Shown: positions 991 through 5,076 of the stretch, one piece after another | Numbering within the stretch: position 1 is the stretch's first letter | Layout of the letters: the number at the start of each line of letters is the position of its first letter | DNA from: Clostridia bacterium | GTDB lineage: Bacteria > Bacillota > Clostridia > Oscillospirales > Acutalibacteraceae | Length of the DNA: 64,000 bases | NCBI GenBank assembly: GCA_017407705.1 | Contig: JAFQWA010000013.1 | Location: forward strand, 1 to 64,000 | Direction: 5' to 3' | Made by a program: the position numbers and the translations under genes | Notes under the pieces: model-generated | The model's database searches: none | Told to the model about the DNA's origin: nothing | What the model saw: the letters and a program-made list of their open reading frames with translations, nothing else

Positions 991-2380
991 AAAAACACAG
1001 GCAGAGTTGCTGAGTGAGCAGCTGTTTGCCAATGAGAAAAACGCCTATTTTGAGGCAACACAGCAGGACATTGACCTGGCATATAAATTCTGCGAAAAAT
1101 ATACCGATTTTCTTAACAAAAGCAAAACTGAGCGTCTTTTTGCCGCTAACACCATTGAGTTGGCAAAGGCAAACGGATTTACAGAGTTTTGCCCCAACAA
1201 AAAGTACAGTGCAGGAGATAAAGTATACGTGCTCCACCGCAATAAAGCAGTTATACTCTGCGTTATAGGTAAAGAGCCTATTGAGAAGGGTGTGCGTATT
1301 GCCGCCGCTCATATTGACTCTCCCCGAATTGACTTAAAGCCCAATCCCTTATATGAAGCTGAGGGACTTGGCTATTTCAAAACCCACTATTACGGCGGTA
1401 TCAAGAAATATCAGTGGCCCACTATTCCCCTCTGCCTTTACGGTGTTATCGTTAAGTCAGACGGTGAAAAGGTTGAGGTAAGTGTTGGCGATAAACCCAC
1501 CGACCCCAAATTCGTTATTACCGACCTGCTTCCTCACTTGGCTGTTGAGCAGTCTAAACGCACTCTTAACGAGGGTATTAAGGGTGAAGAGCTTAACATT
1601 CTTATCGGTTCACGTCCTTTTAACGACGATAAGGCAAGTCAGGCAGTTAAATTAAACCTGATGAAGCTGTTTAACGAGAAATACGGCATTGTGGAAAGCG
1701 ATTTTCAGTCTGCTGAGTTGGAGTTTGTTCCCGCATTTGAGGCTTGTGACATCGGCTTTGATCGCTCACTTATCGGCGGCTACGGTCACGATGACCGTGT
1801 TTGTGCTTATCCTGCAGTTATGGCTGCACTTAACACAAACGCCCCTGAGAAGACTGTTGTCACAGTGCTGGCAGATAAAGAAGAGGTTGGCTCTGACGGT
1901 AACACAGGCTTGTGTTCTGCTTTTATGGCAAACTTCTTTAACGACCTTGCAAAGCAGCAAGGCACCGAAGGATACATCGTTTTAAGAAATTCCCAGTGCT
2001 TGTCTGCTGACGTTAACGTGGCTTACGACCCCACCTTCTCTGACGTTACCGAGAAAAACAACACCGCCTTTATCAACAAAGGCGTTTGCATTACCAAATA
2101 CACCGGCGCAAGAGGTAAGTCCGGCACATCTGACGCTTCTGCCGAGTATATGGGCTTTATCCGTAAGCTGCTCATTGATAACAAGGTAGTGTGGCAGACC
2201 GGTGAGCTTGGTAAGGTGGATGCAGGCGGCGGCGGTACAGTTGCTATGTTTATTGCAAACTTAGACGTTGACACCATCGACCTTGGTGTTCCCGTACTTT
2301 CAATGCACGCACCCTTTGAGGTGGTTTCAAAAATGGACGTGTATATGGCATACCGTGCATTTTACGTTTTCTTCAACTAA
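983..2380 (+). CDS. M18 family aminopeptidase
   Basis: Cytosolic dinuclear-zinc aminopeptidase removing N-terminal residues from peptides. 465 residues, full length for bacterial M18 proteins. Visible metal-site motifs in order: AAHIDSPRIDLKP (H110), GGYGHDDRVCAYP (Asp ligand), DKEEVGSDGNTG (general base and ligand glutamates), and MHAPFEVVSKMD near the C terminus (last His ligand). The ATG is preceded by GGAGG at 970-974 and lies inside the end of the transglycosylase gene (8-nt overlap), indicating one transcript with coaE and slt. Which residue it prefers (acidic, as in DapE-like aspartyl aminopeptidases, or neutral) cannot be read from sequence. Confidence 0.92.
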   Translation: MSEKTQAELLSEQLFANEKNAYFEATQQDIDLAYKFCEKYTDFLNKSKTERLFAANTIELAKANGFTEFCPNKKYSAGDKVYVLHRNKAVILCVIGKEPIEKGVRIAAAHIDSPRIDLKPNPLYEAEGLGYFKTHYYGGIKKYQWPTIPLCLYGVIVKSDGEKVEVSVGDKPTDPKFVITDLLPHLAVEQSKRTLNEGIKGEELNILIGSRPFNDDKASQAVKLNLMKLFNEKYGIVESDFQSAELEFVPAFEACDIGFDRSLIGGYGHDDRVCAYPAVMAALNTNAPEKTVVTVLADKEEVGSDGNTGLCSAFMANFFNDLAKQQGTEGYIVLRNSQCLSADVNVAYDPTFSDVTEKNNTAFINKGVCITKYTGARGKSGTSDASAEYMGFIRKLLIDNKVVWQTGELGKVDAGGGGTVAMFIANLDVDTIDLGVPVLSMHAPFEVVSKMDVYMAYRAFYVFFN

Positions 2381-2393
2381 ATATATAATAAAC

Positions 2394-2438
2394 TTCGTCT
2401 CCTTTGCATATATTTTTACAAAACACAAAGGGGACGAA
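2394..2438 (+). promoter_or_regulatory. Hairpin occluding the ribosome-binding site of the DUF4830 gene
   Basis: TTCGTCTCCTTTG (2394-2406) can pair with CAAAGGGGACGAA (2426-2438), 13 bp with a single G-U pair and a 19-nt loop. The 3' arm contains the Shine-Dalgarno AAAGGGGA for the ATG at 2443. No T-run follows the stem, so it does not look like a terminator. Translational control is inferred from the layout. Confidence 0.6.
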
Positions 2439-2442
2439 AATT

Positions 2443-2940
2443 ATGATCAGTTTTACTGCAAAGATAACAAAAAAGAGGATATTTGTTGCCGCTTTGATTA
2501 TTTTGATACCTATATGTATTTTGGCCTCTTACGTTACTGCCGCTGAGCAAAATCAGGGCTACAGCTTTTCCAGAGTCGGCGGCACCACCAATGAAAGAAT
2601 TGCTTTTTTAGCTCAGTTCGGGTGGGAGGTTGAAGGCTCCTCCGAAACCGTGAAGGATACGATTATTCCCGCCCAGTTTGACGATGTTTACGAGCCCTAT
2701 AACCTTATCCAAACCAATCAGGGCTTTGACCTTACCCCTTACAAGGGCAAAACGGTCAAGCTTTACAGCTTAAAGGTTATCAACTACCCCGAAAACAGCG
2801 AGTATGTTTACGCTACTCTCTTAGTGTATGACAACACTGTTATCGGCGGTGACATTCATTCCACCAGTATGGACGGATTTATGCACGGATTTAATTTAAC
2901 CGGCACGGGACTGAGTATGGGGCAACTTAAAACTAATTAA
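2443..2940 (+). CDS. Secreted or membrane-anchored DUF4830 protein
   Basis: Function unknown. 165 residues from the ATG at 2443, chosen because AAAGGGGA sits 8 nt ahead; a TTG at 2404 in frame has no binding site. Residues about 8-30 form a positively charged, hydrophobic N terminus (KKRIF then a VAALIILIPICILA core) ending in AAE, a signal peptide or anchor. The rest resembles the DUF4830 domain of Clostridia: NERIAFLAQFGWEV, IPAQFDDVYEPYN, QGFDLTPYKGK and VIGGDIHS are recognisable. It sits 15 nt before the pseudouridine synthase gene but behind an RBS-covering hairpin, so its expression may be separately controlled. Confidence 0.75.
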   Translation: MISFTAKITKKRIFVAALIILIPICILASYVTAAEQNQGYSFSRVGGTTNERIAFLAQFGWEVEGSSETVKDTIIPAQFDDVYEPYNLIQTNQGFDLTPYKGKTVKLYSLKVINYPENSEYVYATLLVYDNTVIGGDIHSTSMDGFMHGFNLTGTGLSMGQLKTN

Positions 2941-2955
2941 GACGGTGAAAGGTTT

Positions 2956-3678
2956 ATGGCTGTTGAAAGATTAGACAAGCTTATATCAAAAATATTGAAT
3001 ATCTCACGAAACGACGCTAAGTTGCTTATTAAAAAAGGTAACGTTAAAATAGACGGTGAGATAATCAAAAAAAGCGATATTAAGTGTGATACTGAAAAAA
3101 ATCAAATTTTTGTGAATGATACTGCCTGTTTTTACAAACAATACAGATATATTATGATGCACAAGCCTTCAGGAGTGGTCTGCTCTACTGATGACAGTGA
3201 CGTTAACGTTATTGACATTTTACCCGATGACTTAAAATGTTCCGGTCTGTTCCCTGGGGGCCGACTGGACAAGGACACCACCGGACTGCTGATAATCACT
3301 AACGACGGTGTTTTTGCTCACAAGGTCATCTCCCCTAACAAAAACCTGATAAAACGCTATTTAGCGGATTTGGCTGAGCCTCTTGACGATGATGCGATCA
3401 ACACTCTCACATCACCTATGACTTTGGCAGACGGCACTGTGGTAAAACCTGCACAGATCAAAGTGCTCAGCGATGATAAAATGCAGATCGAAATTGGTAT
3501 CGGCGAAGGTAAGTATCATCAGGTAAAACGAATGCTGGGCGCTGTTAATAACAGAGTGGTATCGTTGCACCGACAAAGCATCGGCTCACTTTCATTGGAC
3601 AGTTCACTGAGTGTGGGAGAATGCCGTGAACTTACTCAATCTGAGTTGGATGAACTATTGCAAAATAGTGACATTTAA
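2956..3678 (+). CDS. rsuA: RsuA-family 16S rRNA pseudouridine synthase
   Basis: Converts a uridine of 16S rRNA (position 516 in E. coli for RsuA) to pseudouridine; the exact target here is inferred from the family. 240 residues: an S4 RNA-binding domain (about residues 1-55, VERLDKLISKILNISR), a linker ending in MMHKPSGVV, and the catalytic domain with GRLDKDTTGLLI, whose aspartate D105 is the nucleophile. KYHQVKRML and VVSLHRQSIG are conserved C-terminal motifs. RBS GAAAGG lies ahead of the ATG. The last 15 nt of the gene belong to a 16-nt sequence repeated in the leader of the next gene. Confidence 0.9.
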   Translation: MAVERLDKLISKILNISRNDAKLLIKKGNVKIDGEIIKKSDIKCDTEKNQIFVNDTACFYKQYRYIMMHKPSGVVCSTDDSDVNVIDILPDDLKCSGLFPGGRLDKDTTGLLIITNDGVFAHKVISPNKNLIKRYLADLAEPLDDDAINTLTSPMTLADGTVVKPAQIKVLSDDKMQIEIGIGEGKYHQVKRMLGAVNNRVVSLHRQSIGSLSLDSSLSVGECRELTQSELDELLQNSDI

Positions 3679-3805
3679 TCAATCGTTCATAATTTGTGCA
3701 CTTTTTATACCAAACCAGCTGTTTTTTGATTTTTTTTGTAAAATTTATGATTGTTATAGTAATATTGACTAAACTGAGATTTGCATATTTGGGCATTTAG
3801 ATTTA

Positions 3806-3834
3806 TTGCATTTTTGTGAATTTTATGGTATCAT
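3806..3834 (+). promoter_or_regulatory. Sigma-A type promoter of the sugar ABC ATPase gene
   Basis: TTGCAT (3806-3811), 17-nt spacer, TATCAT (3829-3834), with TATG directly upstream of the -10 (the Gram-positive TRTG element). Transcription would begin near 3841, leaving a leader of about 50 nt. Confidence 0.6.
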
Positions 3835-3846
3835 TATTACAGTAAT

Positions 3847-3872
3847 TTGGTCAATTGCAAAATAGTGACCAA
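3847..3872 (+). promoter_or_regulatory. Palindrome in the msmX leader (operator or 5' stem-loop)
   Basis: TTGGTCA (3847-3853) and TGACCAA (3866-3872) are perfect 7-bp arms around 12 nt. The element begins within a few bases of the predicted transcript start and ends 6 nt before the AGGAGG ribosome-binding site (3879-3884). It could be a repressor operator or a 5' mRNA hairpin. Its loop carries a 16-nt sequence also found at 3657-3672. Confidence 0.55.
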
Positions 3873-3892
3873 AAAATAGGAGGATTTAATCT

Positions 3893-5035
3893 ATGGCAAG
3901 CTTATCTCTTAAAGGTATTTACAAGAAATACCCCGGCGGCGTTATAGCTGTTTCAGATTTCAACCTTGAAATCAAAGATAAGGAATTTATTATTTTCGTT
4001 GGTCCGTCAGGTTGCGGTAAATCAACAACACTTCGTATGATCGCAGGTCTTGAAGAAATTTCAGACGGTGAATTATACATAGGTGACCGTCTTGTTAACG
4101 ACGTTGCACCTAAGGATCGTGATATCGCCATGGTTTTCCAGAACTATGCGCTTTATCCTCATATGTCAGTTTTCGAGAACATGGCTTTCGGACTTAAGCT
4201 CCGTAAAACTCCTAAGGATGAGATCAAACGTCGTGTTGACGAAGCTGCAAGAATTCTCGATATCGCTCACTTGCTTGATAGAAAGCCTAAGGCTTTGTCA
4301 GGTGGTCAGCGTCAGCGTGTTGCTTTGGGTCGTGCTATCGTTCGTGAGCCCCAGGTATTCTTGCTTGACGAGCCTCTTTCAAACCTTGATGCTAAGCTTC
4401 GTGCACAGATGCGTACCGAGCTTACTAAACTCCATCAGAGACTGGGAACAACCTTTATCTACGTTACTCATGACCAGACAGAGGCTATGACAATGGCTGA
4501 CAGAATCTGCGTTATGAAAGACGGTTTCATCCAGCAGGTTGATACTCCTCAGCATCTTTACGATATGCCTTGCAATATGTTCGTTGCAGGATTTATCGGT
4601 ACTCCCCAGATGAACTTTGTTGACAGCAAGATTATCAAAAAGGGTGACGATTTCTATGTTGAGTTCGGCTCTGAAGATACAAAACGTCGTGAGGGCGTAA
4701 AATTCCAGATCAAGCTTCCCGAAAGCAAGAATCCGAAGGGTATTTTGGAGCAGTATGTTGATAAGGAAGTTATCATGGGTATCCGTCCTGAGCATATCCA
4801 CGATGAGCCCAAGCTCATTGAAGAGTTCCCCGACGGTGTTGTTGAGGCTAACGTTGAAGTTACCGAGCTTATGGGTGCTGAAACTTACCTCTACCTCAAC
4901 TGCGAAACTCATAACCTTATCGCTCGTGTTGATCCCTCTACAACCGCTAAGACCGGTGATACAATTAAGATCACTATGGAACCCGGTAAGATCCACCTCT
5001 TCGATAAGGATACAGAGCAGGCTATCGCTCACTAA
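3893..5035 (+). CDS. msmX: MsmX/UgpC-like multi-sugar ABC transporter ATPase
   Basis: ATP-hydrolysing subunit that powers carbohydrate ABC importers; in Firmicutes one MsmX often serves many transporters. 380 residues. Walker [10 protein letters not shown] at about 37-45, Q-loop [19 protein letters not shown], signature [14 protein letters not shown], Walker [17 protein letters not shown], and the H-loop histidine in [11 protein letters not shown]. The C-terminal third (GIRPEHI, ETYLYLN, PGKIHLF) is the MalK-type TOBE/OB regulatory domain. No permease or binding protein lies next to it, which fits a shared, orphan ATPase. It has its own promoter, a palindromic leader and a strong terminator, so it is monocistronic. 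Confidence 0.93.
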
Positions 5036-5049
5036 TCAAAACTTTAAAA

Positions 5050-5076
5050 GGCAGGAGAAAATCTCCTGCCTTTTTT
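5050..5076 (+). terminator. Rho-independent terminator of msmX
   Basis: GGCAGGAGA (5050-5058) pairs with TCTCCTGCC (5062-5070) around AAA, followed by six T. A very stable 9-bp stem 15 nt after the stop codon. Confidence 0.92.

Follow-up and report, generated by a model that had tools for sequence, protein, structure and literature searches.

We propose that the DUF4830 gene examined here is controlled by the sporulation factor SigE from a promoter lying inside a hairpin, an arrangement in which read-through mRNA would be silenced and SigE mRNA translated, and we consider this reading of the sequence likely. The gene would be a SigE-controlled sporulation gene set between two housekeeping genes of the same strand, and the 12-nt spacer between its -35 and -10 elements would encode the complement of its own Shine-Dalgarno (SD) sequence. 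In growing cells, polymerase arriving from the upstream aminopeptidase gene (pepM18) would copy both spacer and SD, so that the hairpin would form and DUF4830 stay untranslated, and, with no T-run behind the stem, transcription would continue into the pseudouridine synthase gene that follows. During sporulation, the SigE polymerase of the mother cell would start near position 2421, past the 5' arm, and leave the SD free. If this is true, any transcript crossing the promoter would be untranslatable, with the SigE transcript exempt, and spacer and SD should change together gene by gene. The proposal draws on computed features, namely the hairpin, a SigE-type motif, spacer-SD pairing above chance, recurrence of the layout and a link between DUF4830 and SigE. 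The following features were placed in the window, by which we mean the whole 64,000-nt stretch of DNA analyzed.

983-2380, + strand: M18 aminopeptidase gene (pepM18), an ORF matching PF02127 (E 3.7e-82), with its stop codon at 2378-2380
2386-2393, + strand: SigE-type -35 element, TAATAAAC, with the SigE-type base T at position 4, from the de novo motif
2394-2405, + strand: promoter spacer, 12 nt, exactly overlaying the 5' arm of the hairpin save the last base of the arm
2394-2406, + strand: hairpin 5' arm, TTCGTCTCCTTTG, anti-SD-like (CTCCTTT), from sequence, folding and promoter placement
2406-2415, + strand: SigE-type -10 element, GCATATATTT, whose first base closes the stem and whose remainder lies in the loop
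2407-2425, + strand: hairpin loop, 19 nt
2421-2423, + strand: expected start of the SigE mRNA, deduced from promoter geometry
2426-2438, + strand: hairpin 3' arm, CAAAGGGGACGAA, from sequence and folding
2427-2433, + strand: Shine-Dalgarno AAAGGGG, from sequence, 9 nt ahead of the ATG at 2443
2443-2940, + strand: DUF4830 gene, encoding an N-terminal hydrophobic segment and a DUF4830 domain (PF16112, E 1.8e-30)
2956-3678, + strand: RsuA/RluB-type pseudouridine synthase gene, an ORF with a family match, 15 nt 3' of the DUF4830 stop

The pepM18 gene ends 13 nt ahead of the stem, on the same strand, and a terminator scan restricted to loops of 3-8 nt, which the 19-nt loop of the DUF4830 hairpin would escape anyway, listed no + strand site from 2245 to 5046. 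With same-strand neighbours and no terminator reported, DUF4830 therefore appears to sit inside a run of housekeeping genes, in which pepM18 would be the source of read-through transcripts reaching it and the pseudouridine synthase gene may depend on read-through across it. Farther along the window, a perfect 13-bp hairpin resembling an intrinsic terminator lies at 5046-5074, directly 3' of a MalK-type ABC ATPase gene.

The earlier note had described a 13-pair hairpin that buries the whole SD of DUF4830 and is unlikely to stop transcription, a description that the analysis upholds. Twelve Watson-Crick pairs and one G-U pair (U2400-G2432) make up the stem, which, because of the G-U pair, is not a perfect 13-bp inverted repeat (one mismatch between the arms). 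Its MFE of -19.4 kcal/mol (2380-2460) compares with -6.98 ± 2.33 kcal/mol in 200 dinucleotide shuffles (z -5.3), none of which reached equal stability, and the SD falls entirely within the 3' arm. When 501 gene starts in the 717 kb analyzed (45% of the genome) were ranked for SD sequestration without use of the SigE motif, DUF4830 came fifth at -20.7 (mean -9.05, standard deviation 3.53), ranks 3 and 4 being start codons that, judged by eye, lie within other coding frames. A dispersed repeat was set aside, since a search of the genome for the exact two-armed element gave a single copy. Immediately after the stem the sequence reads AAAATTATG, without the T-run that would make the hairpin an intrinsic terminator. 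This argues against a role chiefly in terminating transcription or in protecting the 3' end of the pepM18 mRNA, in place of a block on translation, as does the terminator scan, which reports nothing there, although its 8-nt loop limit would miss this hairpin. T's do follow the stem directly at a dacB-like gene, at pdaB and in the DUF4830 relative G067, giving these sites a terminator-like look, so that the stem might also terminate there; for the window we regard such a role as quite improbable.

The 5' arm of the hairpin consists of the spacer of a SigE-type promoter and the first base of its -10 element. This promoter emerged from a de novo two-block motif search, with widths preset at 8 and 10 and spacing free between 10 and 17, over the oriented upstream regions of 80 DUF4830 relatives and the window. 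The motif returned was TCATATTT-N12-GCATATATTT, with a spacing of 12 in 80% and a T at -35 position 4 in 98% of the 81 upstream regions. In leave-one-out scoring the window promoter obtained 18.3, a score reached by none of 500 shuffles of its own sequence, and a score of at least 9 was found in 71 of the 81 upstream regions versus 2.5% of their shuffles, with a model trained on 80 of the 81. The published Bacillus subtilis SigE logo comprises an 8-nt -35 element and a 10-nt -10 element spaced by 12 ± 1 (PMC517825), and a published distinction places T at -35 position 4 for SigE and C for SigK. The window promoter has the SigE geometry, with a spacing of 12 between its 8-nt and 10-nt blocks, and its -35 element, TAATAAAC, carries T and not C at position 4. 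Judged by its sequence, the motif upstream of DUF4830 genes is probably a sporulation SigE promoter. Among the sigma genes of the window's genome, the SigE-type match (340.5 bits, cut-off 348.6) and the SigG-type match (429 bits, cut-off 457) are strong, yet below the curated cut-offs, and SigK is above its cut-off. A start 6-8 nt past the -10 element would fall near 2421, and the SigE mRNA would therefore lack the 5' arm of the hairpin.

The distribution of DUF4830 connects it to SigE. A search of 98 genomes found the family in 84, one of which is the window's own. Six of the 98, which are 92-99% complete, contain nothing better than 9.5e-21 for a SigE-type factor and matches in the remaining 92 are all at 2.7e-55 or lower, absence being defined by this E-value gap (9.5e-21 to 7e-18 vs 2.7e-55), which was chosen on sight, and the curated SigE cut-off being passed by only 25 of the 98. 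DUF4830 occurs in none of the six and in 84 of the 92 (Fisher p 2.9e-6), several of which may hold SigK rather than SigE. The SigG model gave no match above its cut-off in the 98 genomes and was left out of the profile. A structure of DUF4830 predicted with AlphaFold2 from 12 sequences (mean pLDDT 68.8) had no PDB match at E ≤ 0.001 (best 0.096), so no function could be read from it, and the family name was not found in the literature searched. Taken on its sequence and occurrence, DUF4830 is a probable SigE-dependent sporulation gene.

Spacer-SD pairing was then compared among relatives. Of 83 relatives with DUF4830, 80 were available (G037, G019 and G049 were not fetched), and the pairing set comprised 75 loci including the window, that is, the 81 upstream regions minus five with a motif score below 9 (G074, G008, G029, G030 and G014) and minus G088, a near copy of G065; G074, dropped on this score, has a strong spacer-SD duplex of -20.5. 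Own spacers paired with their SD at a mean of -9.02 kcal/mol versus -6.23 for swapped spacers (z -11, 10,000 permutations) and -6.71 ± 0.23 kcal/mol for shuffled spacers, the own spacer standing out at p ≤ 0.05 in 18 of the 75 loci. When the arm was slid along the upstream region in steps of 2, pairing peaked at the spacer position. Stems of at least 9 pairs were found in 14 loci versus 2.5 expected, and of at least 10 pairs in 8 versus 0.8; stems of at least 7 pairs are absent from 45. The excess is significant both for the 42 loci of the window's own family (p 6e-5) and for 32 loci drawn from other families of its order (p 3e-4).

Weak pairing in many relatives, together with the little or no pairing seen at spoIIIAA, at spoIIM and in a second DUF4830 set, would agree with pyrimidine-rich spacers meeting purine-rich SDs through composition alone, the hairpin being unselected. 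In that second set (L132-L152, from named MAGs, with at least one contig overlapping the first set), the promoter was found in 14 of 21 loci, and pairing, averaged without the seven loci lacking the motif, was -9.04 versus -8.32 for shuffled spacers, with p ≤ 0.05 in 2 of 14. We nevertheless find an origin in composition improbable: the shuffled, swapped and GC-matched controls were all surpassed (Wilcoxon p 2.5e-5 for the GC-matched swap, 75 loci), and none of 1,000 shuffles of the window spacer paired with the SD as well as the spacer itself.

The arms that pair differ greatly in their letters: TTCGTCTCCTTTG/CAAAGGGGACGAA in the window, CGTCCCCTGTCCGC/GCGGACAGGGGGCG in G067 and CTGTTTCTCTC/GAGGGAAACAG in G096. 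This variation from gene to gene, which tracks the local SD, is unlike the binding site of one protein and makes it very improbable that the inverted repeat is a DNA operator or a constraint of the promoter, with SD pairing incidental; the arms do flank the -10 element both here and at the dacB-like gene, but own spacers outdo swapped ones against the SD. The earlier note had proposed a comparison of relatives for preserved pairing, and the relatives compared here all belong to other genera. G050, the closest relative compared (same family, DUF4830 55% identical, with an upstream gene whose C-terminus resembles the same aminopeptidase by eye), keeps an 8-pair core of the window's 13, GTCCCCTT/AAGGGGAC, in which the G-U pair has become G-C, and in relatives more distant than G050 the pairing is often missing. 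Hairpin strength had no significant link to the orientation of the upstream gene, with crude gene calling, either among 32 same-strand and 35 opposite-strand loci (p 0.33) or in a further comparison of 27 and 19 loci (p 0.27), a null result that runs against the read-through idea, which predicts dependence on a same-strand upstream gene.

Folding predictions separate the two kinds of transcript. For RNA starting at 2250, opening the SD and start codon is predicted to cost 14.0-16.2 kcal/mol, compared with 1.1-1.2 kcal/mol for RNA from 2421 that ends by 2480; once more of the gene is included, the cost for this SigE RNA rises to 5.3-9.1 kcal/mol, coding RNA folding onto the SD. The predicted probability of an unpaired SD is 0.001 in the read-through mRNA and 0.14 in a SigE mRNA extending to 2500. 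Across 70 of the 75 loci (those containing N or left with a leader shorter than 12 nt after trimming were set aside), the mean opening cost is 11.6 kcal/mol for read-through and 5.8 kcal/mol for SigE RNA, with a difference of at least 4 kcal/mol in 38 loci and a reversal in 9, where read-through RNA is predicted to be easier to open. The SD is thus predicted, by modelling, to be sequestered in RNA initiated upstream. We infer that read-through occurs, that SigE uses the site and starts where the geometry places it, and that silencing of read-through is the function for which the hairpin was selected.

The earlier note had instead suggested that translation awaits coupling to the aminopeptidase gene, a temperature shift or a small RNA. 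Because the 5' arm is the spacer of a SigE-type promoter, which would supply a transcript unable to form the hairpin, none of these would be needed. Coupling is in addition a poor fit, since the pepM18 stop codon (2378-2380) lies 13 nt from the stem, roughly as far as a ribosome would extend while terminating. A regulated switch on a sole DUF4830 mRNA, whether thermosensor, small-RNA target or coupling-dependent site, would be compatible with the predicted complete pairing of the SD and with a SigA-like site at 2361-2389 (10 of 12 matches) that could start an mRNA near 2396; such an mRNA would keep most of the stem, at an opening cost of 9-15 kcal/mol. SigA-like sites are common, however, with 22 in 6 kb against 13.7 ± 3.1 by chance, no Rfam family matched at its gathering score anywhere in the window, and the 5' arm overlies the spacer of a SigE promoter that is itself strongly supported. 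A 13-pair stem near -19 kcal/mol would also exceed the stability typical of thermosensors. We therefore hold a switch to be unlikely and retain a SigE promoter placed inside a hairpin that silences read-through mRNA.

The same layout recurs at other sporulation genes. Scanning the motif across 717 kb (45%) of the genome, made up of the window plus 35 other stretches, gave 21 matches upstream of plausible starts, including those of sigK, spoIIID, spoIIIAA, cwlD, pdaB, spoIIM and the dacB-like gene, which with DUF4830 make up the eight counted as sporulation genes. Identification is above the curated cut-off for sigK; spoIIM (E 1e-14) is far below its cut-off, the dacB-like gene, encoding a D-Ala-D-Ala carboxypeptidase, is below every cut-off, and spoIIID, spoIIIAA, cwlD and pdaB are each the best family at 3 to 35 bits below the curated cut-offs. 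Spacer-SD pairing reached p ≤ 0.021 in six of the eight (DUF4830, dacB-like, cwlD, spoIIID, pdaB and spoIIIAA) and p < 0.05 in none of the 13 other matches (lowest 0.107), the labels having been assigned after the pairing results were visible; an earlier tally of 6/8 versus 0/12 gave a Fisher p of 7e-4. No such pairing was found at sigK and spoIIM of the window's genome. In the ranking of 501 starts, the dacB-like gene came seventh, cwlD 14th and spoIIID 15th.

Relatives of these genes were sampled as the best 30 loci per search, each sample including the own-genome locus, and loci without the motif were excluded from the means (11 of 30 for dacB-like, 12 of 30 for cwlD, 4 of 30 for spoIIID, 10 of 30 for spoIIIAA and 9 of 25 for spoIIM, where tblastn placed 25 of the 30 loci given). 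Pairing was clearest for dacB-like relatives (promoter in 19/30; -13.95 vs -7.86 for shuffled spacers; p ≤ 0.05 in 11/19) and cwlD relatives (18/30; -10.54 vs -6.95; 8/18), and mild for spoIIID (26/30; -9.54 vs -7.70; 5/26, the own genome's included). Relatives of spoIIIAA (20/30; -5.09 vs -4.64) reached p ≤ 0.05 in 1 of 20, the own genome's, and those of spoIIM (16/25; -7.04 vs -6.24) in 2 of 16. Under a different start rule the counts were 12 of 19 for dacB-like and 3 of 18 for spoIIM. In a class-level sample of dacB-like genes, whose 29 loci include one from the same order (L331) and two sharing the same promoter (L343 and L346), the promoter was found in 12 of 29, with pairing of -10.6 versus -7.0 and p ≤ 0.05 in 4 of 12. 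Since the results vary from gene to gene, the layout is recurrent but gene- and lineage-dependent. Whether sporulation SigE promoters of Clostridia more widely encode the SD complement in their spacer, uniting promoter and read-through insulator in one element, we judge to be evenly balanced.

The principle of silencing read-through mRNA is already known. At gene e of phage T4, as well as at soc, 49 and I-TevI, early mRNA that reads through from upstream folds into an inhibitory structure, the structured transcripts of gene e giving about 100-fold lower lysozyme synthesis, and related phages are described in which a late promoter lies within the region encoding the 5' strand of the structure (PMC3014915). 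As proposed for DUF4830, long transcripts from upstream bury the SD of gene e, and those of the adjacent late promoter, which lack the 5' part, are translated. Gene e differs in belonging to a phage and in its late sigma factor gp55 and late promoter TATAAATA, whereas the promoter proposed for DUF4830 is a cellular one, of SigE type, in which the spacer between -35 and -10 doubles as the 5' arm. In B. subtilis, a large hairpin at sigG is proposed to prevent the translation of mRNA that reads through from spoIIGA-sigE (Mearls et al. 2018, PMC5942855). It too concerns a sporulation gene and is unable to form in the mRNA from the gene's own promoter, but it involves a SigF/SigG promoter, a stem of 20 or more bp and one gene, unlike the layout described here, with SigE-type promoters, an arm within the 12-nt spacer, several genes and many species. 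According to the same source, a small hairpin also occludes the ribosome-binding site of sigG; it is short, like that of DUF4830, and has a 2- to 4-fold effect, but it arises in sigG's own mRNA, which it dampens, whereas the 5' arm of the DUF4830 hairpin should be missing from the corresponding mRNA. Within the literature searched, which included few subscription papers and parts of others, we recognized no wider use of such an arrangement in sporulation promoters and no anti-SD spacers; the spacer-encoded arm and its recurrence across genes look new. The arrangement would show how a developmental gene can lie within a housekeeping unit yet escape early expression, with no need of a terminator that would deprive the next gene of transcription. 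Should it prove general, the spacers of sporulation promoters could no longer be taken as free sequence; it would also offer a signature for finding new sporulation genes and mark DUF4830 as a candidate SigE-dependent sporulation protein.

Several further sites deserve mention. At dacB-like loci (e.g. L116:16252, L318 and L321), the -10 element, the SD, the stem and a TTG start placed directly behind a T-run overlap within about 45-80 bp. The most sequestered of the 501 starts (L225:9598, contig C28; -26.7) opens a 110-aa ORF with a TTG start that has no match in Pfam or NCBIfam, and its SD forms the 3' arm of a hairpin that resembles a terminator, with seven T's at its end. The highest SigE-like score in the 717 kb, 19.6, belongs to an IreB-family phosphoprotein gene (L220:18786, contig C14) that is without a hairpin. 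The second most sequestered start (L218:11437, contig C7; -25.9) is that of a TIGR04086/DUF3792 membrane protein gene, directly preceded by a gene that we take to be YajC-like and followed by a gene for a small Cys-rich peptide; a SigE-like TTCTAAAT-N12-GAATATTTTA, read by eye, lies upstream, making this locus a candidate further member of the promoter-in-hairpin layout.
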